From Haliclystus octoradiatus (lineage: Eukaryota > Cnidaria > Staurozoa > Stauromedusae > Haliclystidae): a DNA stretch of 64,000 nucleotides. Made by a program: the position numbers and the translations under genes. The DNA is taken from NCBI GenBank assembly GCA_916610825.1, contig OU744451.1:23386349-23450348 (forward strand), in the 5' to 3' direction. Position 1 is the stretch's first letter. Each line of letters opens with the position of its first letter. A model generated the notes under the pieces. The model worked only from the letters and a program-made list of their open reading frames with translations. It was not told where the DNA came from and searched no databases. Shown piece after piece: positions 31,762-54,301 of the stretch.

Positions 31762-34700
31762 ATGATTCTTGTTGGTCTGAGACTCACTATTTTCACAGGA
31801 TGCCTGATGGGATTATTTAATCTCGGCAGTGCAACATACGGTCATCCAAGATGTGAGTATATCTATATTAACTAGTCTCAAGCAAATGATTTCGTAGTTT
31901 AAAGGAGCAAAATTGACCGGCGGTCGCTACAAGCTCAACTTGAATTAATTAAGCTTAGCGTAAATTCAACGATCAACGTCAGTCAGGGCTTCAGCATGGC
32001 TTCAAATTTCAGTTTTAGCATGGTTTCAGGTGCAGAAACAATACAAGCGTCAAACACTCACGTGACTCTAAGCGCGTAGAGCATGTCGGTCAATTTTGCT
32101 CCTTTAAATGCTCATACGGGCTGAATTTTACAAGCGAATGAACAAATTCAACGACGAAACTGAGCATTGATTTTGAACATTTGTGTAGTTTTAGAGTAAT
32201 ACAAATTATTATTATATGGGATATATATAACATTGCCAGACATCCTCATAACACATTTCCTACACTCCTTTCGAAACATTGTCCCACCCCTCCCTTTCTA
32301 ATAGATAACCCTAATGTGTTAAGCACTATAAATGATCAATTATTTGGCACTTTGAAATTCTATTTTATTTTAATTAATCGAAAATTACTAATTCCTTTTG
32401 TATTGGTTCCTGTATCCAAGCAACTGTATTTTTTTTCTTTATTTAAAAACTTTATTCGAAAGTAAGAAACCCTTTGATTGCGAAAAAAATAATCCTGTAT
32501 TCGTCAGTGACATTTTTCGACTCTGAGAATCCCTATTTGTCACATTCACAGAATAAAAATTTAACTATGTTTGAATATATATGAATAAAATCCATGTCAT
32601 GCAATTCAAAATCGTCATAACGATTTCGCTAGTATATACATCGCGTTTCTTGTTTCACTCAAATTTTCTCGATAGGTTCGTCAGCGACCATATTCTCCTG
32701 AACAGTACTGCCTTTATAAAAAAAGACTCTTGCAACTTTACATTATTACTTAATACTATACTTTATATCCAACTATAAGTGTAGCTATTATGTATCATTT
32801 CCCCTGTAAATAACTTTATTTAAAACTGACATTGATAAAATGATGATGATGATTGTCATCTTTCGGAAGATCATAACAAGAAATATCAGCGAGTAATGAA
32901 ATCCTTTAGAGTTAAATGTGAATGTGAAAGTAGCACAATTTTTGTTTCCTTACAATTTGGTTACAGAAAAGTTTTACAAACTGAACAAATAACACTCGTC
33001 CGGTATTTACTTCATTTGGGATGACTCTCGAAACGTAATGCGATAACCCTGTTCGGAGAAAGGAATTTTTTGGCCTGAGGCAAGGTGGTATAATTCGATG
33101 TAATTTGATAGAACTACAGTCAAACTCGGTTAATATCCCCTCGTTTAATGTCCCACTATGCTTAATGTCCGTGCATAAAACTGATTTCTTGTTTCAATTC
33201 TCCATACTAACTCTTATATTCCTACCTCGCTTAATATCCCCCCTTGCTTAATGTCCCGCTTTCCATCCGTACTAGGGGGGGGGGGATATTAAGCAAGTTT
33301 GACTGCATCATACGTCTTTTGCTCTTGGCAAATACAGGAAACAATGTGAAAGAGAAACTGACTCTGAAGAGGCTGTTTCGTATCATTTTGAGATCTTTTT
33401 GAGGATTCTCAAAATACTAATTTCTTGTATTTTATTTTAGGTGGAATGCAAGGTTATGATCCAACTGAAGAAATTTGCTGTGAGAATGTAATCCATGCAA
33501 AATTAGCTAGCCATAAATGTTGCAGGTATAATAACATTTACATTCAATTTTATTATATAATTGTCAGTTGTGTATACAGGGTTTTCCGCAACTGAGAAAA
33601 GCGGTGTTCGAAAAATTCATATTTCCCACGAAAAATAACATGTTATTTTTTTACACGCGAAAAAAAAACCTATTATACCAATCAATGAATTGAATGAATG
33701 AATGAATAAATTAATGATTTGTTTATTTCTGCATAGCAGCATATAAATGTGAATTACATACAGAATAAGTTAACATAAATTAACAAATGATTAAATAGTT
33801 TTACATAATTAAGAATCTAGATAGATTTTCATATTGGAGAGGTATATTTTAAATTTATAAACAGTTCCAGAATATAAAATGATAATTCCAGTAGTTTCTG
33901 TGATAACAACTTTCTTTTGTTGGTTCCAATAAAATTCATTTCAGAGTTGCAAATTTGAAATGGTGGAATGGTTTGTCCCTCGGAGAAGGTTGAATTTTCC
34001 GACAAAGGCACAGAAGTTTCGATGCCTTAGAATACGCGCTATTCCTAATATTTACTTTCGAAAGCTTTATTGGCTTTAATGCTGGAATGATAGCTGAAAA
34101 TAAAATCATATTCAAGCTAATTTTACGTTTAAAAACATTTTAAATAAGTTACAATTAAAACTGCACGTGCTGATGATTTTACTGGCCTTCAATATCTATA
34201 AAAGAGACTCAGGATAACATTTGTGGTATTATTTTTATAAAATAAACAGAATAATTCTTGGGTGCATTGAGATTTGAATTTATTTTTCGAGTAGAGTTTC
34301 GCTCGTGAGGTGTCGACTTGAGCACTCGAATATGCGATATTGACAGCTACTTGATTGGTGAATAGACATTATAAATCGTCGAATGTTGTTTTAGCAATCT
34401 GATTGGGTAATGGTCATGTTTGGAATTCACAATGCAGACAATGCTAACAATGGCGGGATACTGAGACCAGATTCAAAACATAAATGCAATAAAACCAAAA
34501 CAAGCAAAATCTTTTTCTTGTTACCTATAAAAGTTTCAAAATGTAGCTCAAAACTAAGAAAATTGTTCTTTTGGTTGCGAAGTAAATTCAGATAGTAATA
34601 ATAATAATAGTAATGATAATAACGGATCAGGAAGGTTTTCTACTTTTACAAGTAATGACTTGTATGTCCTTCTGAATGAAGCACAGGCGAAAAGTACGAA

Positions 34701-37700
34701 GTACAAACAAAATAGGCAGTAAATATTTTCAACGGTATGTTATTGTGACATTGAAATATCATTTACTTGAGGAAATTAAATCCAGAATGTTCGGCCTGGT
34801 CTCAGTATCCAAAACAAAACTGGAAACCTTCAGATCGATATTTGTAACAAAATCGTCCTTTCGATGTGAATACTCTGAACATTGCAGCATTACAACAACA
34901 GACCATCCACTACACAATCGAGGCAATGTAGTACAGTTCTATCTGAACGGTTCACTTGTTGGACGGATTTACAGCTAGAAATTGAGAATTTTGCAGCAAA
35001 AAGCCAAAGCAGCAATTGAAAAATGTGTTGTCACCATGTGTATTTCGCCTATATGTATGCATATGTTTACTTGTCAACAATGGCCGCCGCTTCTGGCCGC
35101 TACCATTTAAATAATATTGAAAAAAATGAAAATACAACAGCACTGTAGCAACTGTTTAGGTGAAGTACAATGAAGAGGTACATTAGCTACATATAAGTAT
35201 ATACCTGTTGCAAGCAACGAACGTTCAAATCAAATGCGGGTACATTCTTTGACAGAGCACAATCACTCGGTAGAGAGGCGATTGCAAAATTGATTTTTAC
35301 TGCATTTTAGAAATTGTTTTAGATTTTTAATTTGAAGGAGTCACTTTGCATCTTCCACTTATTTATATAAATATCGCATAATGTATTTTTGTCTAAATCT
35401 ACAATAGTTTGAGTTAATATGAACATTAAAAGCTAGATCAGGCACAATCCTACGACTCTCATATGATTCAAATTCGAATAATTCTAGTCTAGTATAGCCT
35501 ATAGAAGTGCCCCGGGTTTGAATGGAGGTTGCAGTGAAGGAAAACATAGATTCATAGACTGCGTGTGGCCTAATTAGCAATGTTTTGACCAATTGTGTGA
35601 TATTAGCAAATCATGTAATAATTAAAACAATGAAAATATAGTTATTCCAATTTGTTGTTTACTTCTTATTTTCAGCTCAAAGTTATATGACGTAAGAACA
35701 CATGGTTGTCAAGAAAATGAAACGTATGATCTGAACAAGCATGGTATATGTTCAGGCAAGATGTACAACAAAATGAAACAAAGATGCTACAAAGGAAAAT
35801 TGTATAACCGATCCGCAACATGTGCTTATCATAAACACGATGAGAAAAAGTTCCTGTGTTATGAAGGCAAATTATACGAACGTCAAGTATATGCAATTTG
35901 TGAAAAGGCACTTTTTAAAAAAAAATCTCATACTTGCACTGATGGAAATGTTGTCGTTATTGCTGTCAACCATGAAGATTGCAAGCTCTCCTCCTATCAA
36001 CGAAAAAGATATTTTTGTTATCAAGGAAAGCGTTATGATCATAGATTTTACGGTTTGTGTTCAAGTAAACTGTATTCAAGAAAAAAGCACTTTTGTCATA
36101 AGAATAAATTATACAGCAAAATTAATTATGGTCATTGCAAAGGACGCATATTTAAGAAGAGATTTTATGCTTGCAATCGTTTGAAACTAAGATTGAAGCA
36201 TCCTTATAGGAAATGTAGAGGAAAGATTTACAATACCTTGATCAATATTTGCTACAGACGCAAATTATATTCAAGAAAAACCTATGGTTTTTGCAGACGA
36301 AAGATATTTAAAAGAGCAACACATCGATGTGATAGAGGAAAAGTTGTTCTTATTAAAATAACGGGCAAAAAATGTGGAGGAAAACCAATGAAGAGCAATG
36401 TATTATGTTACAAAAAGAAGCAATACTCTCGTAGGCTATTTGGACTATGTAAGGGTAAATTATTCAAAAGAAGAACACATCAATGCAGAAAAGGAAAAAT
36501 TGTTCGTAGAATACGCTATTATAAACGATGTGGTGGAAAGTATTTAAACAGAAATTTCTTCTGTTTCAAAAATAAGAGATATCTACGCAGAGTGTTTGGT
36601 CTTTGCAAAGGGAAACTTTTCAGAAAGTCAACTCACACATGCAAGAATGGAAAAATTGTTCGCAAACAAAGAAAATGTGGAGGAAAGAATTTGACTAAGA
36701 GGAACTTCTGTTATAAGAACAAGCTGTATTCTCGAAAACACTACGGTCTCTGCAAGGGAAAGTTATTTAAAAGGAGAACTCATGTATGCAGACGAGGAAA
36801 AGTTGTCCGCAAAGCAAGAAATTACAAAAGATGCGGTGGTAAATATTTGAACAAGAAGAATTTCTGTTACAAGAGCAAGATGTACTCTCGCAAACACTAC
36901 GGTCTCTGCAAAGGAAAGTTGTTCAAGAAAGCAACTCATATGTGCAGAAAAGGAAAAGTTGTTCGCAGACCAAGAAATTACAAAAGATGCGGTGGTAAAT
37001 ATTTGAACAAGAGGAACTTCTGTTACAAGAACAAGATGTACTCTCGCAAACACTACGGTCTCTGCAAAGGAAAGTTGTTCAAGAAATCAACTCATATGTG
37101 CAGAAGAGGAAAAATTGTTCGCAAACAAAGAAAATGTGGAGGAAAGAATTTGACTAAGAGGAACTTCTGTTATAAGAACAAGCTGTATTCTCGAAAACAC
37201 TACGGTCTCTGCAAAGGAAAGTTATTTAAAAGGAGAACTCATGTATGCAGACGAGGAAAAGTTGTCCGCAAAGCAAGAAATTACAAAAGATGCGGTGGTA
37301 AATATTTGAACAAGAAGAATTTCTGTTACAAGAACAAGATGTACTCTCGCAAACACTACGGTCTCTGCAAAGGAAAGTTGTTCAAGAAAGCAACTCATAT
37401 GTGCAGAAAAGGAAAAGTTGTTCGCAGACCAAGAAATTACAAAAGATGCGGTGGTAAATATTTGAACAAGAGGAACTTCTGTTACAAGAACAAGATGTAC
37501 TCTCGCAAACACTACGGTCTCTGCAAAGGAAAGTTGTTCAAGAAATCAACTCATATGTGCAGAAGAGGAAAAATTGTTCGCAAACAAAGAAAATGTGGAG
37601 GAAAGAATTTGACTAAGAGGAACTTCTGTTATAAGAACAAGATGTACTCTCGCAAACACTACGGTCTCTGCAAAGGAAAGTTGTTCAAGAAAGCAACTCA

Positions 37701-38049
37701 TATGTGCAGAAAAGGAAAAGTTGTTCGCAGACCAAGAAATTACAAAAGATGCGGTGGTAAATATTTGAACAAGAGGAATTTCTGTTACAAGAACAAGATG
37801 TACTCTCGCAAACACTACGGTCTCTGTAAAGGAAAGTTGTTCAAGAAATCAACTCATATGTGCAGAAGAGGAAAAGTTGTTCGCAGACCACGAAATTACA
37901 AAAGATGCGGTGGTAAATATTTGAACAAGAAGAATTTCTGTTACAAGAACAAGATGTACTCCCGCAAACACTACGGTCTCTGCAAAGGAAAGTTGTTTAA
38001 GAAAGCAACTCATGTGTGCAGAAAAGGAAAAGTTGTCTCCAGGGGTTAA
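31762..38049 (+). CDS. Secreted, highly basic galaxin-like cysteine repeat protein
   Basis: Three coding exons: 31762-31852 (the exon itself starts at 31761 after 'ctttcag'), 33441-33525 and 35676-38049, giving 849 residues. The ATG opens a typical signal peptide (ILVGLRLTIF...GSA). Intron 1 is phase 1 and splits the first Cys codon. Exon 2 carries a galaxin-type module, CGMQGYDPTEEICC then KCC. Intron 2 is phase 2 right after CC. Exon 3 is a run of modules of 49 or 52 residues with the pattern CGGK-x7-CYKNK-x9-YGLCKGKLF-x7-C, four Cys each. One 52-residue unit has 19 Lys/Arg and no Asp/Glu. The name galaxin-like rests on Cys spacing, CGG and Y(D/N) motifs. Function is unknown: an extracellular matrix, shell, tube or adhesive scleroprotein is my guess. 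It converges on a paralogous gene at 43177-54301. Confidence 0.88.
31903..32103. mobile_element. 201 bp MITE with TTAA target site in intron 1
   Basis: The ends AGGAGCAAAATTGACC and its exact inverse are flanked by TTAA on both sides (31899-31902 and 32104-32107). piggyBac- or Kolobok-like. Confidence 0.75.
33117..33305. mobile_element. MITE family R2 copy
   Basis: CAGTCAAACTCGG after TA at the left, 'agcaagtttgactg' at the right, with a G-run near 33285. It ends 135 bp before the second coding exon of the basic gene. Confidence 0.7.
33526..35675. other. Intron 2 of the basic repeat gene
   Basis: 2150 bp between a 'gtataa' donor and a 'tattttcag' acceptor. The open frame at 34676-34978 (100 residues) resembles nothing I know and shows no splice or codon support. 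I see no repeat family in the body. Confidence 0.6.
36661..37577 (+). repeat. 459 bp higher-order coding repeat, two copies
   Basis: The landmark 'cgcaaacaaagaaaatgtgg' recurs at 36661, 37120 and 37579, exactly 459 bp apart. Each copy encodes units of 52, 52 and 49 residues (153 in all). After 37579 the order changes: the third copy has lost one 52-residue unit of the L-type, consistent with unequal crossing-over or conversion. The two full copies are almost identical. Confidence 0.9.
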
Positions 38050-38157
38050 TACTAGATAGAAAGCGAAAGTATAAAAAATTGTACCTTAGAAGAAGGCAAG
38101 TTTGATTTATCATATATTACTTGAAACTTAACACTTATTTACTCGTATGAGCTACTC

Positions 38158-38163
38158 ATTAAA
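38158..38163 (+). other. Possible poly(A) signal of the basic repeat gene
   Basis: ATTAAA about 109 bases after the stop, a common variant signal, followed by U-rich sequence. Supported only by position. Confidence 0.4.
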
Positions 38164-38546
38164 CATTTGTAATTTTAAGAATTGACAATTAAAATTTTTA
38201 AAATTGATATTCGCTTTAATGTCTTTTGTTTTAATTACTAAAATACTCGTTCTGTAATTTTCCTTTGCTATACGAGTCCGAGTCGTAGATATCAATATTT
38301 ATCCAACCTTTCTCGACAACAGAGATTTTGAAATTGAGATATCCTCAGTTTAATTCGTTTTGAAGGTATTGAAAATCGCCATTTTGCTCTATTGAAAACG
38401 AGCTTCTGCTTTTGAACAAAAACTTTATTGAATTCGTTACATTATTTTCGCGGGTTTTGTTCAAATTACGCAAGCCTGGGTTTGGTGGAATGAAAATTGC
38501 TACCGTAAAATCGGCACATGAAAGAGTGTCCCATGAAATAGCAAGA

Positions 38547-38868
38547 CAATATTGCCCGGGGGTAACTCCACTATGACGGCTATACGGGGACGTGCCAATT
38601 TTTTTGGGTCCATATTCCAGCTGAGGAAAAACTTTTTGGGTTTGAGATTTCAAATTTTGGAGTCTTTTGGGTATCCTGCTTTTGATTTTTTCAAGAATTT
38701 TTGAAAATATTTGCATCATTTTTGTGTATTCACACAAAATCAATTAACCTGCTGGAACTTTTTGTGTTGCATCAACAGAAATTTTTGGAACTTTTTGGGT
38801 ACTTTACCTATTTCCAAAATGGCACCTCCCCGTCCCTAAAGAGCTGAAGTTACCCCCGGGCAATATTG
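38547..38868. mobile_element. Inverted-repeat element, CAATATTGCCCGGGGGTAAC ends
   Basis: About 21 bp near-perfect inverted ends bound 322 bp containing 'ggctatacggggacgtgcc'. The same interior motif is in the element near 53125-53395, whose ends are also C/G runs followed by 'ggacttc' and its inverse. Confidence 0.65.
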
Positions 38869-39084
38869 TAGGTGTAGATTAATCACACCTTGGTAAATCT
38901 GCAGTTTGTGACGAACAGTAAAGAGGGTTTCTAGGTGAATCAGGGTGTAAATATTTGCCCTAATGCGGGAGTAAACATGATTTATACATACCTCATACCA
39001 ATTTAGTTTCTCGTCTACATATATACACCTGAAAATTTGACCGAATTACGTCAGTGTTGATAGAAATATGATTGACTTTCAAAA

Positions 39085-39250
39085 TCATTTCCAAGTTGTT
39101 TGTTGGAATTTGAGAAAATTATGAAATTTGGTTTTGCTGGATGTAAAAGTCAGCTCATTATCATAAAACCATTTTGATACTTTGAAAAGTTCGTAGTGAT
39201 ACAGATTTATGCTTGGAAATAATTTGTTGTCCATGGAATCCATCATGCAA
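39085..39250 (-). pseudogene. LINE reverse-transcriptase fragment
   Basis: A short minus-strand frame contains LFKVSKWFYDNELTF then SSKTKFHNF, the post-YADD 'V..WF..N.L..N.SKTKF' segment of non-LTR reverse transcriptases. The upstream and downstream RT domains are absent. It is a separate relic from the plus-strand LINE that follows. Confidence 0.5.
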
Positions 39251-39291
39251 TGAGCAGTTTCATATTCATATTGATCAACATATAAATAAAA

Positions 39292-41880
39292 TTGTTTTTT
39301 AACAATCTTTTCCAAATCTTTGGAGAAATCATGATGAAATTGGTCTGTAATTGGAAAAATAATGTGGATTCTGTCTCGTCTATTCAGTCAACAAGTTATA
39401 CTCCAATCACTTTAACAACAAATTTTATAAATGATATATCAAATGTAAGTATTTTAGCAAATCAATTTCAATTTCAGTCAATTTCAATGTTAGAAACAGA
39501 AAAATTAATATATAAACTACCAAATAAACGATCTGTAGGTATCGATAACATAGAAACTAGGCTTTTAAAATTAATTGCACACAGCATTGCACCAGGCTTG
39601 ACTGGAATATTCAATCTTTCTCTCAGGGATGATGTCTTTCCTGAAGCTCTGAAAACAGCAAAGGTTATCCCTTTACACAAGGGTGATGCCATAACTGAGA
39701 GAACCAATTATCGTCTAGCCTGCGCGCAGACCCAAATCTTTTTTTTATGATTAGTAGGGTCTGCGTAATATGGACAGAAAGCTTGCACTGGGCGGAAGTT
39801 GGGGGGAGTGGCGGAACGTCACTACACTTTAACTCCTGCTGTTCAGCGTTGTTCAACTACAGACGGCGTCACAAACAGCATTTCTGCAAGTCCGATTTTC
39901 GTAAATAACAAAACTTTTCACAATCAAAATTAACACTTATTATTTACGAAATAAGATGAGTTGATTCATAACCACGTTCAAATGATTAATACTAACTTAA
40001 TACAACGTACTATTTCTGTTCAATACGAAGTGATCTAAGTTGTCCAATGTTTTTAATGCATTTGTTTTTGACAAAGAAACTCGAAAATTGACATTGGTAA
40101 TAAAACGATGATGAGAATTAGTCTTTCGCAAAGAAATATTTTTGTAATCCATTGCCATGGCGCAGCAAAAAAGATCCAGAGATTAAATCGTTCTATATCT
40201 AATAAAATGATTTGTTCTTTCGATATTACCCATGACAAATTGGCTTTTACGACAAACACAATCCAAACGAATTGAAAGTATCTTAAAATCAAGTCTTTCC
40301 TGGCCGAAGCTGCCTGCAAAATGATTTTATCGAAGAAGAACGACGTTTTATTATTCGGCTTGCGTGTAGCATACTTGAAAAGGAATGCGTCAATAACTTA
40401 TATTTATCAACCTATCATGTTCTGGTTCTAGTTTTGGAGAACTTGCTAGCGATTGGCTGATGAACAATAGACACACAATAGATTTCTCACGTTTCTGCCA
40501 CTCCCTCTAATTCAGTCCAGCGCAAGCTTTCTGTCAATCATACGCAGACCCTACTAATCATAAAAAAAGATTTAGGTCTGCACGCAGGCTAATTATCGTC
40601 CAATTTCAGTCCTTCCGATAATCTTCAAGCTTTTAGAAAAGATTGCTCATACCCAGTTAAAATTATTATTTATCAAATTATAATATATTATCTAATTACC
40701 ATTTTGGTTTTCGTAACAACCATTCGACAGACGGCACTGTGTTAAGTTTTGTTTCAATAATATTTTAAATAGAAATCTTAAAGGTGTAATTAGTATTGAT
40801 CTTAAAAAGGCATTTGATAAGTAGATTTGTATATATTATTAGATGAAATTATACGGTAGTGATGTAAATATCTTAAATTTTTTAAATCTTATTTATTGCA
40901 TAGAAAACAAAGTGTAAATGTAAATAGTGTAAATTCAAATTTAGATGTAATTAAATACGAAGTTCCTCAAGGGTCAATCCTTTGGCCGCTACTCTTTCTT
41001 ATTTATATAAATGATATTTGTAACTCTGTAAATAACTGTAAAATAAATCTATATGCAGACGATACTCTTTTGTATGCAACCCGTAAAGATATGAGGTAAA
41101 GATATGAAAGACGTTGAAGAAAACTAACATTAAATATTAAATATTAATAAAATATTAATAAAACTAACTGCTAACTGCATGGTATAGTAGGCTCCAGGAC
41201 AAAACTAAATAAACAAGAACCAATTGATTTGATAATAAAACTGGATGACAAACCTGTCGAAAGAGTAGATATTTTTGAAATACCTAGGCATTGAAATAGA
41301 CAATACCCTATCTTTTGACAAATATGTTCTAGCAATAAATAAGAAAATAGAAGCTTGGGCGTTTTGAAATATGTGAGACACTTCATACCGCAAGAAGCAG
41401 CTGAAACTATTTATAAAACCATTGTTTTGCCACACTTCGACTACTGCACTGTCGTATGAGGAACTGTAAAACCGAACATCTAGATCGCCTCCAGAGATTG
41501 CAAAACAGAGGAATGAGGACGGTGCTCCGTTGTAACTACCGCACTCGTGCCTCTGATATGCAAAGTCAACTAGGTTGGCTTTCTGTTAGAGACAGAATAA
41601 CATCGCATCAACGAATACGGCAAGCTGTTCTGGTGGAATACGGCAGTTGAAAAAAGTCGGAAAGGAAAGGAGGAGCTAGTTTGAATTTAATTTTATGAGT
41701 AAACATTATTCCACCAGAACAAGATCTGACGCCCACAATGACATTTACATCAAGTCGAGCCATCGCCATTCCTTTCAAGATTCTGGTGTGCATAAGTGGA
41801 ACGATCTACCGTCTGCAATGAAGGAAGTCCAAAGCAGGCCTACTTTCAAATGTCTCCTTGATAAGCACTTACGTTCTTAA
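39292..41880 (+). pseudogene. Non-LTR retrotransposon (jockey/CR1-like) ORF2 remnant
   Basis: RT motifs occur in order but in shifting frames. A segment with KRSVGIDNIETRLLK and FPEALKTAKVIPLHKGD runs to TNYR at 39714. After an inserted transposon the frame resumes as PISVLPIIFKLLEKI (from about 40600), then FGFRNNHST and IDLKKAFDK, then [12 protein letters not shown] and YADDTLLYA (40896-41099). Further on come KYLGIEIDNTLSFD-like sequence, LDRLQRLQNRGMRTVL (41456-41650) and an ORF end with HKWNDLPSAM (41695-41880). Stops and frameshifts make it non-functional. The N-terminal endonuclease was not seen. Confidence 0.85.
39716..40591. mobile_element. 876 bp DNA transposon inserted into the LINE RT domain
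   Basis: The inverted ends TAGCCTGCGCGCAGACC and, on the other side, TAGCCTGCGTGCAGACC extend for about 47 bp through 'tatgattagtagggtctgcg'. A 9 bp direct repeat ATTATCGTC lies immediately outside both ends (39707-39715 and 40592-40600). Removing the element and one repeat restores the RT reading TNYR-PISV, which proves the boundaries. A 9 bp duplication fits Mutator-like or Merlin-like elements. No transposase is seen. Confidence 0.88.
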
Positions 41881-41999
41881 GATACTTTATACTTACCACT
41901 CGTTCCTGTTATTTAAACCCTTTATACGTAATGTCTGTTTTCTTGTTAACTTAGCTATGTCTGCAACATATGTATCAGTCCTTTGAAAAAAAGTTATGT

Positions 42000-43000
42000 A
42001 TAACTTAAATGTTTATGACTAAATGATGATGATGACTGAGTGCCTCAATAGCATGTAATAAACAATCACTAGCAATTGCCAATTACTAACTAATGTATTT
42101 AATACAATTATATAAGAAAAGTGGTTGTTTGTACTTTCGTGTTTTGTCTTCACCACAAACTTTCTTTATAGAACTTCATTCATTTAATATCGTAAATTAC
42201 ATTAATACAACTTCCCTTTGAATAAGCCTCCTAACTGTACGGAGACTTAAACGACCTAAATTCGAATGAAGCGTAGCGTATGAAGCTTAAGGCAGTGGCA
42301 GACCCTTGATGATATATTGGGGTGCTGTGCATCCTTGCATATGACAATAAGGGCCAACTATAGGGAGTCTACCCCAGGGATGTTTTGTAAAATGAAATCC
42401 TGAAAGCTCTCTAATGGCACTTTCTAATACCAGAAAATTGGATTGATGTTAACCCTGGCTTTCAAAACAGTGTAGCATATGACAACCCTTTTTTGCTGTC
42501 TCGAACATCAATCAACGTACCACTTTATGATATGTTACTATACATGGAACTATATGCCTGAACATTTTTCTGATGTTGATTTCACTATCGGCAATCCTAA
42601 CATCTTTGCCTTGACCACTGCCAACTTGAACCGTCGCGGCATCAGTCGAATAGTTTACCACACTTTCACTCCTAACTCTTTCTAATCAGAAAAAAGCTTC
42701 CTTCTTTTCTTTAATTGCGAAACAGCGATTGTGATTTGGAATTATTCATAAGTGTTTATTAGATTGAAATACAGTCTATTGATTTAACTAAGTAAAACTT
42801 ATATGAAATAGTACATCTCAGTCAAGGCCCAGTCAAACCATCAAGCGATCATTTATAAAAGCTTCAATCATGTAAGAAATTAGATCTTTGAAGCTATAAT
42901 TTAATACATTAGCGTAATTTTTTCGCCATCTTGAATTTCCTTGATCATTGTAAATTTAACAATATCAAATTTAATTTAATTGGAATCAAAGACAATAATC
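42000..43000. other. Spacer, nothing recognised
   Basis: The small frame at 42479-42685 contains DFTIGNPNIFALTTANLNRRG, which I do not recognise. No clear repeat is seen here. Confidence 0.4.
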
Positions 43001-43026
43001 GCTAAGAAATCAAAATAAACTAAACA

Positions 43027-43032
43027 TTTATT
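43027..43032 (-). other. Poly(A) signal AATAAA for the acidic repeat gene
   Basis: AATAAA on the minus strand about 145 bases after the stop. A second AATAAA lies at 43078-43083. Either fits the expected distance. Confidence 0.5.
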
Positions 43033-43176
43033 GTAAATTTTGTTTAATTTTCTTGACTGACAACTGCCTATAGTTATTTTATTTGTTGACATTCTATTTC
43101 ATAGAACTTCTAAATTAACTTTTAGTTATACATGGTGGGTAATATAGTTAGGAACAACGTTCATCAGAATTTCCAT

Positions 43177-46100
43177 TTAGACTACTTTAGTGTATCCAAT
43201 AGGTTTTACTACACCATAAACACATCTGTATTTGTTTAATTCATAAGCTAAACCACGACAAACACCATGAGTTGAATAGGCATATGATGTAGATTTCAAA
43301 CAAAAGTTGCTGCGTCTTTCATAGAGAACACCATTGCACAAGCCGTATGTAAATACAGAGTATACATCTCCGTTATAACACATCTCTTCCATTTTTCGAT
43401 ATGCACATTCTCCGCAAGGTCCGTATTCTTCTTTACTCCATACCTTTGGTTTTCCTTGTTTATCTTGGTATGATTTAGCACAGAATTCAGTTGCTTTTTC
43501 AGCAGCTAGATCACCACATTTTTCATATTTATCTTTTGGGAACACTTTGTCATTCCCATCCTTATCTTTAGCACAGAAATATGTTGCGACTTCGTACACT
43601 TCTTCACCGCATTTGTCGTATTTGGATATAGGGAAAGGTTTATCAATCCCATCTTTATCTTTGGCACAAAATTCTGCACCTCTTCTAGCTGCTTCACCGT
43701 TACCACATTTTTGATACTGCCATCTGTAGAAGGGTTTTTCTGGAGCTCCAGGATTGTTAGGATCCTTGGCACAAAATTGACTTTGCTTGTTCGCAGCTTC
43801 TCCATTTTCACATTTTTCGTATGTTGTTTTGTCAAATGGCTTTTCAGGATCATTGGGTTTTTTGGGGTCCTTGGCACAGAATTGATTTTGCTTGTTTGCA
43901 GCTTCTCCATTCTCGCATTTTTCAAATGTCTCTTTGTCGAATGGCTTTTCTGGTTCATTTGGATTATTTGGGTCTTTGGCACAGAATTGGCTTTGCTTGT
44001 TGGCTGCTTCTCCGTTCTCGCATTTCTCAAATGTCTCTTTGTCAAATGGCTTTTCTGGGCCATTAGGATTTTGAGGGTCTTTAGCACAGAATTGCTTTTC
44101 AATGTTTATTACTTCACCATTTTCACAAACTTTGTATACATTTTTGTCTAATGGCTTTTCTGGGCCGTTTGGATTTTGAGGGTCCTTTGCGCAGAATTGG
44201 TTCTCCTTGTTAGCAGCTTCTCCGTTCTCACATTTCTCAAATGTCTCTTTGTCGAATGGTTTTTCTGGCTCATTAGGAGCTTTGGGGTCTTTGGCGCAAA
44301 ATTGGTTTTGCTTGTTGGCCGCTTCACCGTTCTCACATTTCTCAAATGTCTCTTTGTCGAATGGCTTTTCTGGGCCATTTGGATTTTGAGGGTCTTTGGC
44401 GCAGAATTGGTTCTGCTTGTTTGCAGCTTCACCGTTCTCACATTTCTCAAATGTCTCTTTGTCGAATGGCTTTTCTGGCTCATTTGGAGCTTTGGGGTCT
44501 TTAGCACAAAATTGATTCTGCTTGTTGGCAGCCTCTCCATTCTCGCATTTCTCAAATGTCTCTTTGTCGAATGGCTTTTCTGGGCCATTTGGATTTTGAG
44601 GATCTTTGGCGCAGAATTGGTTTTGTTTGTTGGCAGTTTCTCCATTCTCGCATTTCTCAAATGTCTCTTTGTCAAATGGCTTTTCTGGACCATTTGGATT
44701 TTGAGGATCTTTGGCGCAGAATTGGTTTTGTTTGTTGGCAGCTTCTCCATTCTGGCATTTCTCAAATGTCTCTTTATCAAAAGGCTTTTCTGGGCCGTTT
44801 GGATTTTGAGGGTCTTTGGCGCAGAATTGATTTTGTTTATTGGCAGCTTCTCCATTCTCGCATTTCTCAAATGTCTCTTTGTCGAATGGCTTTTCTGGGG
44901 CATTTGGATTTTGAGGATCTTTGGCGCAGAATTGATTTTGTTTGTTGGCAGCTTCTCCATTCTCGCATTTCTCAAATGTCTCTTTGTCGAATGGCTTTTC
45001 TGGGCCATTTGGATTTTGAGGGTCTTTGGCGCAGAACTGGTTTTGTTTGTTTGCAGCTTCCCCATTCTCGCATTTCTCAAATGTCTCTTTGTCGAATGGC
45101 TTTTCTGGACCATTTGGATTTTGAGGATCTTTGGCGCAGAATTGGTTCAGCTTGTTGGCAGCTTCTCCATTCTCGCATTTCTCAAATGTCTCTTTGTCGA
45201 ATGGCTTTTCTGGGCCATTTGGATTTTGAGGATCTTTGGCGCAGAATTGGTTTTGTTTGTTGGCAGCTTCTCCATTCTCGCATTTCTCAAATGTCTCTTT
45301 GTCGAAAGGCTTTTCTGGGCCATTTGGATTTTGAGGATCTTTGGCGCAGAATTGGTTTTGTTTGTTGGCAGCTTCTCCATTCTCACATTTCTCAAACGTC
45401 TCTTTGTCGAATGGCTTTTCTGGGCCATTTGGATTATTAGGGTCTTTTGCGCAGAATTGATTCTGCTTGTTGGCAGCTTCACCGTTCTCACATTTCTCAA
45501 ATGTCTCTTTGTCGAATGGCTTTTCTGGCTCATTTGGAGCTTTGGGGTCTTTGGCACAAAATTGATTCTGCTTGTTGGCAGCTTCTCCGTTCTCGCATTT
45601 CTCGAATGTCTCTTTGTCGAATGGCTTTTCTGGGCCATTTGGATTTTGAGGATCTTTGGCGCAGAATTGGTTTTGTTTGTTTGCAGCTTCTCCATTCTCG
45701 CATTTCTCAAATGTCTCTTTGTCGAATGGCTTTTCTGGGCCATTTGGATTTTGAGGGTCTTTGGCGCAGAATTGGTTTTGTTTGTTGGCAGCTTCTCCAT
45801 TCTCGCATTTCTCAAATGTCTCCTTGTCGAATGGCTTTTCTGGGCCATTTGGATTTTGAGGATCTTTGGCGCAGAATTGGTTTTGTTTGTTGGCAGCTTC
45901 TCCATTCTCGCATTTCTCAAATGTCTCTTTGTCGAATGGCTTTTCTGGGCCATTTGGATTTTGAGGGTCTTTGGCGCAGAATTGGTTTTGTTTGTTGGCA
46001 GCTTCTCCATTTTCGCATTTCTCAAATGTCTCCTTGTCAAATGGCTTTTCTGGGCCATTTGGATTTTGAGGATCTTTGGCGCAGAATTGGTTTTGTTTGT

Positions 46101-49100
46101 TGGCAGCTTCTCCGTTCTCGCATTTCTCAAATGTCTCTTTGTCGAATGGCTTTTCTGGGTCATTTGGATTTTGAGGGTCTTTGGCGCAGAATTGGTTTTG
46201 TTTGTTTGCAGCTTCTCCGTTCTCGCATTTCTCAAATGTATCTTTGTCAAATGGCTTTTCTGGGCCATTAGGATTTTGAGGGTCTTTTGCACAGAATTGG
46301 TTCTGCTTGTTGGCGGCTTCTCCGTTCTCACATTCCTCGAATTCCTCTTTATCGACTGGCTTTTCCGGGCCATTTGGATTGTTTACGTCTTTTGCGCAGA
46401 ATTGATTCAGCTTGTTGGCAGCCTCTCCGTTTTCGCATTTTTCAAATGTCTCTTTGTCGAATGGCTTTTCTGGACCATTTGGATTTTGAGGGTCTTTTGC
46501 GCAGAATTGGTTTTGCTTGTTGGCTGCTTCTCCGTTCTCGCATTTCTCAAATGTCTCTTTGTCGAATGGCTTTTCTGGGCCATTTGGATTTTGAGGGTCC
46601 TTTGCACAGAATTGGTTTTGCTTGTTGGCTGCTTCTCCATTCTCGCATTTTTCAAATGTGTCTTTGTCAAACGGCTTTTCTGGATCATTAGGAGAATTAG
46701 GGTCTTTGGCACAGAATTGGTTCTGCTTGTTGGCAGCCTCTCCATTCTCGCATTTCTCGAATGTCTCTTTGTCAAATGGCTTTTCTGGGCCATTTGGATT
46801 ATTTGGGTCTTTTGCGCAGAATTGGTTCTGCTTGTTGGCTGCTTCTCCATTCTCGCATTTCTCGAATGTCTCTTTGTCGAATGGCTTTTCTGGGCCATTT
46901 GGATTTTGAGGGTCTTTGGCGCAGAATTGGTTTTGTTTGTTGGCAGCTTCTCCATTCACGCATTTCTCAAATGTCTCTTTATCGAATGGCTTTTCTGGGC
47001 CATTTGGATTTTGAGGGTCTTTGGCGCAGAATTGGTTTTGTTTGTTGGCAGCTTCTCCATTCTCGCATTTCTCAAATGTCTCTTTGTCGAATGGCTTTTC
47101 TGGGCCATTTGGATTTTGAGGGTCTTTGGCGCAGAATTGGTTTTGCTTGTTGGCAGCTTCTCCGTTCTCGCATTTCTCAAATGTCTCTTTGTCGAATGGC
47201 TTTTCTGGGCCATTTGGATTTTGAGGGTCTTTGGCGCAGAATTGGTTTTGCTTGTTGGCAGCTTCTCCATTCTCACATTTCTCAAATGTCTCTTTGTCGA
47301 ATGGCTTTTCTGGGCTATTTGGATTTTGAGGGTCTTTGGCGCAGAATTGGTTTTGTTTGTTGGCAGCTTCTCCATTCTCGCATTTCTCAAATGTCTCTTT
47401 GTCAAATGGCTTTTCTGGGCCATTTGGATTTTGAGGGTCTTTTGCACAGAATTGGCTCTGCTTATTGGCGGCTTCTCCGTTCTCACATTCCTCGAATGCC
47501 TCTTTATCGACTGGCTTTTCTGGGCCATTTGGATTTTGAGGGTCTTTTGCGCAGAATTGGTTCTGCTTGTTGGCTGCTTCTCCATTCTCGCATTTCTCGA
47601 ATGTCTCTTTGTCGAATGGCTTTTCTGGTCCATTTGGATTTTGAGGGTCTTTGGCGCAGAATTGGTTTTGTTTGTTGGCAGCTTCTCCATTCTCGCATTT
47701 CTCAAATGTCTCTTTGTCGAATGGCTTTTCTGGGCCATTTGGATTTTGAGGGTCTTTGGCGCAGAATTGGTTTTGTTTGTTGGCAGCTTCTCCATTCTCG
47801 CATTTCTCAAATGTCTCTTTGTCGAATGGCTTTTCTGGGCCATTTGGATTTTGAGGGTCTTTGGCGCAGAATTGGTTTACCTTGTTGGCAGCTTCTCCGT
47901 TCTCGCATTTCTCAAATGTCTCTTTGTCGAATGGCTTTTCTGGGCCATTTGGATTTTGAGGGTCTTTGGCGCAGAATTGGTTTTGCTTGTTTGCAGCTTC
48001 TCCATTCTCACATTTCTCAAATGTCTCTTTGTCGAATGGCTTTTCTGGGCCATTTGGATTTTGAGGGTCTTTGGCGCAGAATTGGTTTTGTTTGTTGGCA
48101 GCTTCTCCATTCTCGCATTTCTCAAATGTCTCTTTGTCAAATGGCTTTTCTGGGCCATTTGGATTTTGAGGGTCTTTTGCACAGAATTGGCTCTGCTTAT
48201 TGGCGGCTTCTCCGTTCTCACATTCCTCGAATGCCTCTTTATCGACTGGCTTTTCTGGGCCATTTGGATTTTGAGGGTCTTTTGCGCAGAATTGGTTCAG
48301 CTTGTTGGCAGCTTCTCCGTTCTCACATTTCTCGAATGTCTCTTTGTCGAATGGCTTTTCTGGGCCATTTGGATTTTGAGGGTCTTTGGCACAGAATTGG
48401 TTTTGCTTGTTGGCAGCTTCTCCATTCTCGCATTTCTCAAATGTCTCTTTGTCGAATGGCTTTTCTGGGCCATTTGGATTTTGAGGGTCTTTGGCGCAGA
48501 ATTGGTTTTGTTTGTTGGCAGCTTCTCCATTCTCGCATTTCTCAAATGTCTCTTTGTCGAATGGCTTTTCTGGGCCATTTGGATTTTGAGGGTCTTTGGC
48601 GCAGAATTGGTTTTGCTTGTTGGCAGCTTCTCCGTTCACGCATTTCTCAAATGTGTCTTTGTCAAATGGCTTTTCTGGGCCGTTTGGATTTTGAGGGTCT
48701 TTGGCGCAGAATTGGTTTTGCTTGTTGGCAGCTTCTCCGTTCTCGCATTTCTCAAATGTGTCTTTGTCAAATGGCTTTTCTGGGCCATTTGGATTTTGAG
48801 GGTCTTTGGCACAGAATTGGTTTTGCTTGTTGGCAGCTTCTCCATTCTCGCATTTCTCAAATGTCTCTTTGTCGAATGGCTTTTCTGGGCCATTTGGATT
48901 TTGAGGGTCTTTTGCGCAGAATTGGTTCTGCTTGTTGGCGGCTTCTCCGTTCTCACATTCCTCGAATGCCTCTTTATCGACTGGCTTTTCTGGGCCGTTT
49001 GGATTATTTGGGTCTTTTGCGCAGAATTGATTCTGCTTGTTGGCAGCTTCTCCGTTCTCACATTTCTCAAATGTCTCCTTGTCGAATGGCTTTTCTGGAC

Positions 49101-52100
49101 CATTTGGATTTTGAGGGTCTTTGGCGCAGAATTGGTTTTGTTTGTTGGCTGCTTCTCCATTCTCGCATTTCTCAAATGTCTCTTTGTCGAATGGCTTTCC
49201 TGGGCCATTTGGATTTTGAGGGTCTTTGGCGCAGAATTGGTTTTGTTTGTTGGCTGCTTCTCCATTCTCGCATTTTTCAAATGTCTCTTTGTCAAATGGC
49301 TTTTCTGGGCCATTTGGATTTTTTGGGTCTTTGGCACAGAATTGGTTTTGTTTGTTGGCTGCTTCTCCATTCTCGCATTTCTCAAATGTCTCTTTGTCGA
49401 ATGGCTTTCCTGGGCCATTTGGATTTTGAGGGTCTTTGGCGCAGAATTGGTTTTGTTTGTTGGCTGCTTCTCCATTCTCGCATTTTTCAAATGTCTCTTT
49501 GTCAAATGGCTTTTCTGGGCCATTTGGATTTTGTGGGTCTTTGGCGCAAAATTGTTTTTCCAAGTTGACTATTTCACCATTTTCACACTTTTTGAATTCA
49601 GTTTTGTCTAATGGCTTTTCTGGACCATTTGGATTTTGAGGGTCTTTGGCGCAGAATTGATTTTGTTTGTTGGCAGCTTCTCCATTTTCGCATTTCTCAA
49701 ATGTCTCTTTGTCGAATGGTTTTTCTGGACCATTAGGATTTTTTGGGTCTTTGGCACAGAATTGGGTTTGTTTGTTGGCAGCTTCTCCGTTTTCACATTT
49801 CTCGTGTGTTTCTTTTTCAAATGGCTTTTCTTGTCCACTTGGATTTTTAGGATCCTTGGCACAAAATTCTGTTGCTACTTCAATAACTTGTCCATTCTCA
49901 CACTGTTTGTAAGTGGCTGTATCCAATGGTTTGCTTGGTCCAATTGGATTTTGAGGGTCTTTGGCGCAGAATTGGTTTTGTTTGTTGGCTGCTTGTCCGT
50001 TTTCACATTTTTCAAATGTTTCTTTGTCAAAAGGTTTCTCTGGTCCATCAGGGTTTTTAGGGTCCTTTGCACAGAATTGTGTTTGCTTGTTGATGACTTC
50101 TCCATTTTGACATTTTTCATAAGCGTTCTTGTCTAATGGCTTTTCTGGTCCGTTAGGGTTGCTTGGATCTTTTCCACAAAATTGTGTTTGCTTGTTGGCT
50201 GCTTCTCCATTTTCACATTTCTCAAATGTGTCTTTGTCAAATGGTTTTTCTGGTTCATCAGGTTTTTTGGGGTCTTTGGCACAAAACTGTGCTTGCTTGT
50301 TGGCTGCGTAACCATTTGCACATTTTTCGTATTTATCTTTTGGGAATGGTTTATCCACTCCATCTTTATCTTTAGCACATATTTCTGTGGCTTTTTCCGC
50401 TGCATATCCATTTTCACATTTTTCATAATTCTTTTTATCGAATACTTTGTCTTTGCCATCTTTATCTTTGGCACAGAATTGTGTAGTTTTGTAATATGCC
50501 CCTATGCCACATTCTCCAAAATAATTCTTATCAAATGCTGTGTCAACTCCATCTGGTTTTCCATTATGCTTCGCACAAAATTGTGTGATGATGTTATATG
50601 CACATACTCCGCATGGTTTGTGTGTAGATTTGTTGTAAACCTTTGGTTTGTATTCCAAATCTTTAGCACAAAATTCTGTTGCTATATTGTAGATTTCATA
50701 ACCACATTTTGCATGGGTTAGTTTGCTGTATGCTTTGTTCATGTGACATATATAGTCTTTTGTTAGTAAAAGCTTGTCCCTGGAAAGAAAGGAGCGAATT
50801 TTAATTATTGAATGCTATTTTTATAACTCTCATTTCAATAGAAACCACCTATAGCAGTCATAACATGTGACAGCTTTAAGGGGGTTCGCTACATATAGTG
50901 CCAAATTTCAATTCTATAATAATTCGTTGATATTTGGTGGAAGCATTCTTCAATTATAGAGGTTCTCAAATATGAAATAAAAATAATTGGTCACTATGTT
51001 ATTTTGGGCACAGAGGTTGTTCAAATTCCCAATAAGTTTGGATACTAAAATATATGCAGTTTTTTGACATTCTTAAAAAATCAGATGGATGCATGAACGA
51101 TACAGAAATTTAGAAGAAAGACTTTCAGACATATATATATACCAATGCCTAAAATATTTTTTTTTGAGTCTAGCAATTAATGTTGTCTGGGGAGTGCGCA
51201 ATTTCACCTACTTTTCAGTTCTTTACAGCAATATACTCAAATAAAATTTTATCAAATTTAGATACTCATTTGAAATTGGAATAGGGTCGACTCATGAAAA
51301 ATTAAAACTCAGATTGTTACCTTAGCTTGTTGCACTAAGTAGTGCCTGATTACTTCATACTATAAAAATCCCTATCACGATAAGTGAGCGCGATAAGATC
51401 ACGACATCTATTGAGCATTCGTCCATAACAACAACACGATTTTCGAAATTTGGATCTTATGAACGAATGCTCAATAGCTGTTGTGATCTTATCATGATCA
51501 TTCGTCGTGATAGGAACTTTACAATATGACGTCACATAACTTTCATTCTTTGTTTTTCAAGATTTGAAATTATGACTTTGTCAAATGCATATTTCTCAGA
51601 AAATACTTATTTTTTATCAATAAATCTTGGCAAAATAATCAAGGCACTTAGTACAATAAGTCAAGGTAAAATAGAACGAGTTTTTAATGTTTTTATGAGT
51701 CAACCCTATATTCAAATTTTAAATGTTCCTCCAAACCAAACCTGATTCTGAAATTTCTTTTCTTTCATAAAACACTTTCTATAAATTTTATGTGTTTGTA
51801 ATGTGTATGTATACATGTTTACTATTATTATACTCGGGACAAATGGGAGACACTCGGGGAGACTCGGTTAAGCTAGTAGCCTTTTTTCAACGATGTGTTT
51901 GGTTAATTGGTTAATGTTTTTAAGCGTGAAAATGTTGGTAATATGTAGAATCGATTCTTCATTGAATGAGGGTTAGGGAAATCCTGGCTTCATTGGGTGA
52001 TTTTATGCTCCTTGTCATCTAGAAGAATTCGGGGATATAATCACATAGTGTACACACTTACTCGCAACACATCTCGTCAGCTTTCCTGTCATAGACTTTT

Positions 52101-54301
52101 GCTCCACAACACACTTGAACAAATGGATGAAAAAACACGACGTCAGGGGAATCAGGCTGACCTGCGACTTGAGGAGGACCTATATATAAAACATAAAAAA
52201 ATTGTTGTTAAATGTTAACACTGATACCAACAACACTGACATCAACACTGACATCAACACTGACATCAGCACTGACATAACTCATTATATTAGCACTGCA
52301 TCAACACTGACATTAATGCTGTCATCAAACACTGACATCAACAATGACATCAACACTGACATCAAAATTGACATCAGCACTGACATAACTCATTATATTA
52401 GCACTGCATCAACACTGACACTAGTGCTGTCATCAAACACTGACATCAACAATGACATCAACACTGACACTAGTACTGACATCAAAATTGGCATTACCAC
52501 TGACATAACACCGACATTATCACTGGCATAACTCATAATATTTGCACTGCATCAACACTGACACTAGTACTGACATCAACAGTGACATTAACACTGGCAT
52601 AACTCATAATATTAGCACTGCATCAACACTGACATCAACACTGATACTAGTACTGACATCAAAATTGACATTATCACTAACATAACACTAACATTAACAC
52701 TGGCCTCAACACTGACATTAGTACTGACATCAACACTGATTCACATTGACATCAATAAAAAATTAAGAACATACTCGCTATTTCTCCTCTTTATGGATAA
52801 TTCTTCCTAAGAAAATTACATGCAGCCCCGGCAAAATGGACGCAAAATGTGCTCAACATCGCTGTAGAGCTCATATAGATCACATGTTGGGTTTATCGTT
52901 GAGGAAACGTGTTTAGCTGTGACGAGTGACAATATTTGTAGATAATAAATTTGATCATTGTTAATTAATATTGCTAAATTTAATCAGACATTTTATATCT
53001 GCAAAGTGACTGTAAAAGAAAAAACGATAAAATAGATGATAATTTTGAGAAGTTTCATAATGATAGATTCAAATTACATTTTCAATCGAAAATAATGTAA
53101 TGTGATGGGAAATGAAAAAAACGCAGGCCCGGGGGGGACTTCCATACATTGGCTATTGGCTATACGGGGACGTGCCATTTTTAAGGAGTGCCTTTTTCCA
53201 AATTCTTGTGAAATTTTAGGGTGTCAATTTACAGATTTTTGAAAGTTTTAGAACTTTTCCTTTGTTTTACTTGTAAAAACACGAAATTTTAGGGTCTCCG
53301 TCCTCACTTGCTGTGAAATTTTAGGGGTTTCCTTTAAATTTTGAAAATGGCGCACCTGCGTCTAAAAAATATCGAAGTGCCCCCCCCCCCCGGAACACAG
53401 GTACTTTTATATAATTTACCAATCAAATTTACAATAGAGTGTACTTAAGCAAGTCATGTAATCTTCTGCATTTCAAGATGCTCCATTTGTTTTGTAGTAT
53501 TTCCTATTTAACTGCCATATTGTACATAAAATGTCGAAACGTTGCTCTGTTACGCATTTTATCATATAAAATTTTTAAATGTTATAGGTACCAAACTCTA
53601 GCTGATAGTTTTGTGCTATAATTATAGCTAGGTTATAGTTTTACTTGATTTTTCATTATTTTTTTCGAAAAGACAACGAAATGTAAATTGAAGAAATAGC
53701 TAATGTCATTGCAAATGTGATTTTCTGTAATTTTTATGGGTTTCTCTTTGGAAATTGATGAGTTTCATGTACATTTCACTGAAATTAATAACACTGTTTA
53801 TCTACTTAATTCAAAGAGTATAGCCCGTTGTTTCAGAACTAGCTCTATAAATTTCGAGTTGTCTTAAATTCAAAAAATATAATTATAAGATACTTGGCAT
53901 GTATCTCAGGAGATTACCTATAATGCACTCATAATAACGCATGGCAATTAGAAGAATGGGGTTGGTCACTTTGAGGATGATTGATTCTTAATTGTGTCCT
54001 CCTATTGAAGTCATTAAAATACCATATTTAAATTTCTATTATCCGTAGTAACACAGCAAGGATCAATTATAATGGAGGCAAGATTAAATAATACATAAAT
54101 AGCAAAAATAACGACTGTACATCAACCACTGAACTCTGAAGAGGCTTGTAGGCAAGCTAGGGGCTATATAGTGTATGAATCCATCCCCCTTCATAAAATA
54201 CATCATATAAGTTCAAATCGGTACTTACATTTTGAAATATAAGCTGCTTGTGAAAGCGACAATGAAGCTACAAGAGCAGCGAATGTAACTAACTGTAGCA
54301 T
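43177..54301 (-). CDS. Giant secreted acidic galaxin-like repeat protein, 2597 aa
   Basis: Coding exons on the minus strand: 54301-54229, 52179-52062 and 50779-43177, total 7794 nt. Exon 1 follows the acceptor 'tttcatcag' and encodes a signal peptide (MLQLVTFAALVASL...QAA). Its phase-1 donor splits the first Cys codon. Exon 2 has VCCGAKVYDRKADEMCCE, a classical galaxin double-Cys module. The phase-2 intron follows CC. Exon 3 starts DKLLLTKDYICHMNKAYSKL, so the ATG at 50742 is internal. About 62 copies follow of a 35-residue unit, CAKDPQNPNGPEKPFDKE then TFEKCENGEAANKQNQF: two Cys, net charge about -2. The last 80 residues (MCYNGDVYSVFTYGLCNG, YELNKYRCVYGVV) resemble the modules of the basic gene. 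Function unknown. Family naming is inference from Cys pattern. Confidence 0.9.
43735..50283 (-). repeat. 105 bp coding minisatellite, about 62 units
   Basis: The period is exactly 105 bp (35 codons), so all six frames stay in register. The central units are nearly identical and edge units are degenerate. A marked variant (VDKEAFEECENG; 'ctcgaatgcctctttatcg' on the plus strand) recurs at 47491, 48226 and 48961, spacing 735 bp = 7 units, and a cousin lies at 46336 (1155 bp = 11 units). This indicates duplication of multi-unit blocks. Confidence 0.95.
51268..51725. repeat. 458 bp palindromic element, family R7
   Basis: Inverted arms cover nearly the whole length: 'actcatttgaaattggaata' with 'gtcgactcat' on the left, and 'atgagtcaaccctatattc' on the right. 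The centre has 'gatcttatcatgatcattcg' and its inverse. A broken relative is at 3490-4130. It lies in the intron between exons 2 and 3 of the acidic gene. Confidence 0.75.
52204..52755. repeat. Intronic minisatellite of 'actgacatcaac'-type units
   Basis: Dozens of imperfect 6 bp-multiple units (ACTGACATCAAC, with ATTAGCACTGC spacers). A larger block ('actcattatattagcactgc' onward) is repeated at about 52268 and 52388. The array starts about 25 bp from the splice acceptor of exon 2 of the acidic gene, inside intron 1. Confidence 0.9.
53125..53395. mobile_element. Inverted-repeat element with C/G-run ends
   Basis: The left end 'cccgggggggacttcc' and right end 'gaagtgccccccccccccgg' are inverted. 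The interior has 'ggctatacggggacgtgcc', as in 38547-38868. Confidence 0.6.

Follow-up and report, generated by a model that had tools for sequence, protein, structure and literature searches.

Three neighbouring paralogues that look galaxin-derived encode probably secreted repeat proteins of contrasting charge in Haliclystus octoradiatus

Coral galaxins and galaxin-like proteins, among them Amgalaxin-like 1 and 2 of Acropora, consist of tandem cysteine repeats, and their genes are clustered in the genome. As described in the available excerpts of the Acropora work, Amgalaxin-like 1 joins a strongly basic part (isoelectric point, pI, 12.39) to an acidic one (pI 3.21), and Amgalaxin-like 2 has a comparable two-part build. 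Here we describe a cluster of three genes, likewise with tandem cysteine repeats, on chromosome 6 (26.96 Mb; contig C7) of the staurozoan Haliclystus octoradiatus. Two of them, CAT1 and AN, lie in a stretch of 64,000 nucleotides (hereafter the window; contig OU744451.1, positions 23,386,349 to 23,450,348), and the third, GLX3, adjoins it. In the corals both charges are found in one protein, whereas in Haliclystus they are split over neighbouring genes. Moreover, the coral repeats keep di-cysteines, whereas those of Haliclystus have single cysteines. AN also has roughly four times the length of the largest of the three Acropora proteins (660 amino acids, aa).

The calcarins of Sycon ciliatum, as far as the excerpted source describes them, are galaxin-like, have a signal peptide and regular cysteines, and arose in some cases by gene duplication. 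They carry 10-23 di-cysteines, no detailed repeats and a link to spicules, as against two di-cysteines and strong repeats in the proteins of the cluster (PMC12419799). A looser likeness is offered by Mlig-ap1 of the flatworm Macrostomum, a large secreted protein with extreme regions rich in lysine and arginine (K/R). In the excerpts on temporary adhesion in this animal, a K/R-rich protein is proposed as cohesive, anions are proposed to interfere with this cohesion, and they inhibit attachment. However, Mlig-ap1 contains lectin-type domains alongside VWD and EGF-like ones and is an analogue in working principle only. The cement of the sandcastle worm combines a polycation with a phosphoserine polyanion. 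It shares with the cluster secreted repeat proteins of opposite charge and a cation rich in lysine and tyrosine, but the main exon of AN has 0.9% serine, near-balanced charge and no phosphoserine blocks. Among the matches listed in the open-licence full-text literature, judged by titles and the starts of abstracts, none dealt with staurozoan galaxin-type genes, staurozoan adhesive proteins or a charge-split cluster; in one survey, known from excerpts, a figure of skeletome homologues includes Staurozoa (PMC6824150). The galaxin family itself is known; the members of this cluster are galaxin-derived proteins that lack tandem di-cysteines and are split into opposite charges.

The genes were modelled on the jrHalOcto1.1 assembly, which the excerpted genome report describes as having 33 scaffolds and 262 Mb (PMC9975415). 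The start codons of CAT1 (31762, plus strand) and AN (54301, minus strand) bound the studied region; the two genes are convergent, with 5.1 kb between their facing stop codons. GLX3 lies on the minus strand like AN, and its 3′ end is about 1 kb beyond the right edge of the window. Further sequences carry the labels L010, L027 and L030-L032, each with its own coordinates, and C4, C5, C6, C10 and C11 are contig labels, not chromosome numbers. The features are as follows.

31762..31852, plus strand: CAT1 exon 1, start codon and probable signal peptide (by hydropathy), ends in phase 1
33441..33525, plus strand: CAT1 exon 2, galaxin-like di-cysteine exon of 85 nucleotides with cysteine gaps 0,12,0, ends in phase 2
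35676..38049, plus strand: CAT1 exon 3, last exon with repeats, stop at 38049, 161 bits on the Pfam family PF24748
36373..38046, plus strand: CAT1 array, 11 units of 47-52 aa
54229..54301, minus strand: AN exon 1, start codon and probable signal peptide (by hydropathy), ends in phase 1
52062..52179, minus strand: AN exon 2, galaxin-like di-cysteine exon of 118 nucleotides, ends in phase 2
43177..50779, minus strand: AN exon 3, giant last exon with the array and galaxin-like flanks
43672..50286, minus strand: AN array, 63 units of 35 aa, net -120 over 2205 residues
L010, 3203-3113, 2790-2706 and 2310-996, minus strand: GLX3 exons 1, 2 and 3

All three genes share one layout: exon 1 is hydrophobic and ends in phase 1, exon 2 is short, carries di-cysteines and ends in phase 2, and a single long exon bears the repeats. 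In CAT1 and GLX3 even the lengths of exons 1 and 2 agree (91 and 85 nucleotides). With their GT/AG splice sites read by eye, CAT1 and AN are real three-exon genes.

The CAT1 product has 849 aa and a pI of 10.5. Its array is made of 11 'CGGK' units with four cysteines each, ten of them with 49-52 residues and a charge of +17 to +20, the last with 47 residues and +15. In the 558 residues of the array, 204 K/R and no aspartate or glutamate (D/E) were counted (+0.366 per residue), which upholds for the array the original prediction of about +19 per unit without acidic residues. The whole protein has 270 K/R and 18 D/E (net +252), all 18 acidic residues being N-terminal to the array. Cysteines are spaced 13/11/14 (or 11)/10, in columns intact in 11/11 units, and the protein has five N-glycosylation sequons. 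Other Pfam matches, TSP_C and Env-gp36, were regarded as composition effects.

The AN product is far longer (2,597 aa, pI 4.9), its array length being that of a single assembly. Tandem Repeats Finder gave 62.4 copies of 105 bp, and of 70 units obtained by splitting, 63 were 35 aa long and 42 had a charge of -2; about 62 units of 35 residues at about -2 had been predicted. The whole protein contains 382 K/R and 495 D/E (net -113). The fractions of positive and negative residues in the array are 0.146 and 0.200, giving -0.054 per residue, and the flanks of the array are near neutral (+0.019 and +0.018 per residue). Cysteine gaps are 21/12 inside the array, in columns intact in 62/62 units, and return to 13/11 at the C-terminus, so that the array resembles an ancestral ladder in which one loop has gained some eight residues. 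There is one N-glycosylation sequon. Loops of the form AKDKDGxDK, which resemble a DxDG calcium-binding motif, were observed in the flank units (within 50287-50778 and 43180-43701, minus strand) and not in interior units. An antisense frame of 1819 aa (44152-49611) lies opposite the array; it probably arises simply because the repeat length (105 bp) is a multiple of three. Pfam matches of AN to DUF1647, YmgD and others were regarded as composition effects.

GLX3 encodes 497 aa with a pI of 9.97, a net charge of +83 (87 K/R, 4 D/E) and 11.5% tyrosine. Its cysteine gaps of 13/11 continue to the end of the protein, with columns intact in 16/16 units, and its eight N-glycosylation sequons, all NKS, all fall within repeat units. 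Matches to SCRG1, TMEM100 and CH_CAMSAP2_N were below the cut-off and regarded as composition effects; a match to Carb_bind (29.9 bits, cut-off 25) was discounted on the same ground by judgement.

By sequence comparison, the three genes are paralogues. Cysteine gaps of 0,12,0,11,13,11 open all three proteins near their start. A genome search with GLX3 recovered CAT1 (E-value 1.0e-44) and AN (E-value 1.8e-12). Comparisons of AN with the other two were each set against 300 shuffles with the cysteines held in place. The N-terminal part of AN scored 68.6 bits with GLX3 and 53.5 with CAT1 (best shuffles 38.1 and 39.7), and its C-terminal part 76.3 and 52.4 bits (best shuffles 38.5 and 31.2). Alignment of unit profiles with hhalign gave probabilities of 97.8% for GLX3 with CAT1 and 82.8% for GLX3 with AN. 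CAT1 and AN themselves are called paralogous because their intron phases and opening cysteine ladder are identical and their homology exceeds that of the cysteine-fixed shuffles. The arrays are coding sequence, since the ratio of non-synonymous to synonymous differences (pN/pS, approximate, codons with more than one difference being set aside) is low, 0.054 among 62 AN units and 0.108 among 10 of the 11 CAT1 units, and third-position differences are dominant. Thus, the repeats of CAT1 and AN are under purifying selection.

Membership in the galaxin family is less uniform. The CAT1 exon-3 frame scored 161.1 bits on PF24748 (Galaxin_repeat, gathering cut-off 28 bits), the only one of the three cluster proteins above the cut-off. 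The whole AN frame gave no match to PF24748, its N-flank no Pfam match and its C-flank 25.6 bits, just below the cut-off. For GLX3, no galaxin Pfam match was found at E 0.01, and none of the 14 genome matches of PF24748 at E 1 falls within it. Of the two window genes, both predicted to be galaxin-like at the N-terminus, CAT1 exceeds the Pfam threshold and AN falls short of it. Each of the three proteins has two CC motifs, both near the start, and single cysteines in the repeats; the tandem di-cysteine repeats that define galaxins are absent from all of them, and for that reason we name them galaxin-derived and not galaxins. An RXRR processing motif, which in the excerpted survey characterises scleractinian galaxin sensu stricto (PMC6824150), occurs in none of the three. 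Look-ups among known structures returned no match for CAT1, GLX3 or an AN profile of 14 rows, and NCBIfam a single weak match far below its cut-off. Overall, all three genes look derived from a galaxin-like ancestor.

The rest of the genome was searched with 326 residues of the AN repeat exon, with GLX3 and with PF24748. Among the matches listed for these queries, no convincing fourth single-cysteine gene was found; weak matches on C10 (E 0.1-4) each had internal stops. Using tblastn over 124 kb around the locus, only CAT1, AN and GLX3 were recovered, four matches elsewhere at E 3.0-4.4 being ignored. A GLX3 match at C11:16637015-16640812 (best E 8.4e-15, 16-22% identity) was rejected as a paralogue because the 1,001 bases read at one end are a low-complexity repeat with no repeat cysteine in three minus-strand frames. 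The 14 matches of PF24748 are distributed as five at this locus, five on C6, three on C4 and one on C5, those at C4:5.17 Mb and C5:14.38 Mb being weak and below the cut-off. On C6, the frames with di-cysteines near 6.486-6.490 Mb appear to form a single galaxin with several exons, and C4 has a di-cysteine stretch near 27.636 Mb. A frame of 496 aa on the latter contig near 35.133 Mb (L027:7449-8936, minus strand) combines galaxin repeats with a chitin-binding peritrophin-A domain, each scoring above its cut-off, and has an arginine-rich C-terminal tail.

The tail-to-tail arrangement of cysteine-patterned paralogues with hydrophobic N-termini and opposite net charge (+252 vs -113) was confirmed. 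The predicted pair is, however, a set of three, two of which are cationic, and the term polyanion overstates AN. The opposite charge of CAT1 and AN is real but lopsided, the density of the AN array being about one seventh of that of the CAT1 array, and AN is a weak polyampholyte, not a strong polyanion. How far charge is kept was examined on distinct variants of the repeat units that lie a single base away from the consensus of their column. Transitions were weighted 2, variants of any other kind were dropped, and the p values are uncorrected for three tests. Of the amino-acid variants, those that change charge made up 3/17 in CAT1 (7.1 expected, p 0.033), 15/34 in AN (15.2 expected, p 0.54) and 4/16 in GLX3 (5.4 expected, p 0.32). 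The positive charge of CAT1 may thus be kept for its own sake, with modest conservation, and the mild acidity of AN shows no sign of being specifically conserved.

The reading that we favour, tentatively and at somewhat less than an even chance, is that the cluster encodes secreted, disulfide-linked repeat proteins that would be structural parts of an epidermal secretion, with adhesive or mucous glands as the most likely setting. We were led to this setting by the glandular anatomy of staurozoans, the attachment of this species to seaweed and the precedents of Acropora and Macrostomum. H. octoradiatus lives attached to kelp or other seaweeds (PMC9975415, in excerpt), and the excerpted staurozoan systematics paper calls the anchors and pads glandular and adhesive. 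The Acropora galaxin-likes, again from excerpts, are expressed at settlement in the aboral, substrate-facing ectoderm, and in a tubeworm galaxin is found in the body wall. The three paralogues, clustered, galaxin-derived and divergent in charge, would have their products serve in glands, adhesive or mucous, on the parts by which the animal clings to seaweed: its pedal disk, anchors and tentacles. Given secretion and disulfides, each cysteine-bounded hairpin could be a stiff bead. CAT1 and GLX3, with K/R- and tyrosine-rich, almost acid-free repeats, might attach to anionic glycans, whether in mucus, glycocalyx or algal wall, and add cohesion. AN, very long and open to cross-linking, would serve as a spacer or form a network, and inserted loops rich in proline and asparagine could hold it extended and near neutral.

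Several points weigh against this proposal. The three proteins are placed in a tissue purely by analogy, and their secretion is probable from N-terminal hydropathy only (all three N-termini are hydrophobic, with no strong hydrophobic stretch downstream). The word 'galaxin' does not occur in the main text of a study of the Hydra basal-disc glue, so the nearest studied cnidarian glue lends no support. A paper on staurozoan anatomy reports a glandular epidermis but describes no secreted material, and 'secretion', 'mucus' and 'gland cells' are absent from it. The charge test is weak for CAT1 as for GLX3. Finally, hhalign gave a probability of only 22.0% for the unit profiles of CAT1 and AN; by itself that match gives no support for homology of the two arrays, and the layout of the genes, their flanks and the shuffles count for more. 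A bolder form of the same proposal, which we consider distinctly unlikely, is that array expansion and concerted evolution drove the duplicates to opposite charges, so that the two halves of an underwater adhesive assembled by charge would come from one locus, with the cations docking on acidic polysaccharides of kelp and mucus and the long, weakly acidic sister forming a releasable network.

The alternative that survives best, unlikely as it is, follows the original prediction most closely and takes CAT1 and AN as a matched pair, polycation and polyanion, secreted together and joined into one material by coacervation or complex formation. They are indeed adjacent convergent paralogues of opposite net charge. 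But in complex-coacervate cements both partners have opposite and high charge density, and such a density was found in CAT1 and not in AN, which has 14.6% basic residues and would have its low charge density weakened further by the salt of sea water. Moreover, AN charge is not specifically conserved, the third copy is cationic too, and words common to the upstream regions of the three genes are not above chance, which bears indirectly on co-expression. A joint extracellular material is still plausible, in which the proteins might meet.

Two further readings are each slightly less probable again. Ancestral galaxins have been suggested to be structural extracellular proteins (PMC2726143, in excerpt), and another galaxin-repeat gene of this genome carries a chitin-binding domain, both of which would suit the coat of a life-cycle stage, be it a cuticle, a cyst wall or an egg or planula envelope; yet 'periderm' and 'podocyst' are absent from the excerpted systematics paper. 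Nematocysts are the other candidate, the proteins then being disulfide-rich components of capsule wall, tubule or matrix and the cations packing polyanionic capsule content. The host is a cnidarian, the proteins have many cysteines, and nematocyst capsules are filled with polyglutamate, which polycations would suit. However, no nematocyst-type domain was found among the Pfam matches of CAT1, AN and GLX3, and the top paper among the matches listed for galaxin and nematocyst, a review of sea anemone toxins, has 'galaxin' once, which is a weak argument.

More doubtful still is a non-structural cluster in which CAT1, and perhaps GLX3, would be a precursor from which cleavage at dibasic sites releases cationic defence peptides with four cysteines each. 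CAT1 has 85 (overlapping) dibasic sites and four cysteines per unit, and KR ends 7/10 of the units that precede another unit, but dibasics are expected by chance at 32% K+R, the furin site RX[KR]R is absent from all three proteins, and dibasics are scarce in AN (8) and GLX3 (11). A biomineral scaffold, also raised by the original prediction, is very improbable and has no support in this animal: the family resemblance to coral galaxins and the calcarins of the sponge spicule matrix, linked in excerpt to spicule formation (PMC12419799), speak for it, but the coral-type RXRR motif is missing and the excerpted systematics paper contains neither 'calcareous' nor 'statolith', an absence of words that is no proof of an absence of mineral.

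Some further observations concern the surroundings of the genes. A splice-acceptor-like tract lies 1, 2 and 7 bases upstream of the ATG at 31762 (plus strand), 54301 (minus strand) and L010:3203 (minus strand), that is, in 3/3 genes, and such a tract precedes 176 of the 2636 ATGs of the window (both strands); either an intron in the 5′ untranslated region or trans-splicing could be reflected. Intron 1 of CAT1 contains a dispersed repeat of about 210 bp (31896-32107), with at least 39 other near-full-length copies genome-wide at 84-92% identity. The first intron of AN holds tandem repeats of 12 bp and 71 bp (52231-52755). Elsewhere in the window, tandem repeats were seen at 8279-8506 (69 bp, 3.3 copies, 99%) and 23327-23619 (148 bp, 2 copies, 93%). 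The neighbouring genes, on L031, L030 and L032, are an inositol-phosphate synthase, a TAFH-domain (TAF4-like) frame and a DREV methyltransferase (METTL9-like), and are usable as synteny anchors.

Overall, the cluster offers three concrete candidates for a staurozoan structural secretion. One repeat ladder would have given rise, via loop insertion and array expansion, to a K/R polycation, a tyrosine-rich form that carries N-glycosylation sequons, and a polyampholyte of giant size; a near-ancestral spacing of the units is still visible at the ends of AN. The locus may thus bear on bioadhesion, on pre-skeletal roles of galaxins and on the design of protein materials.

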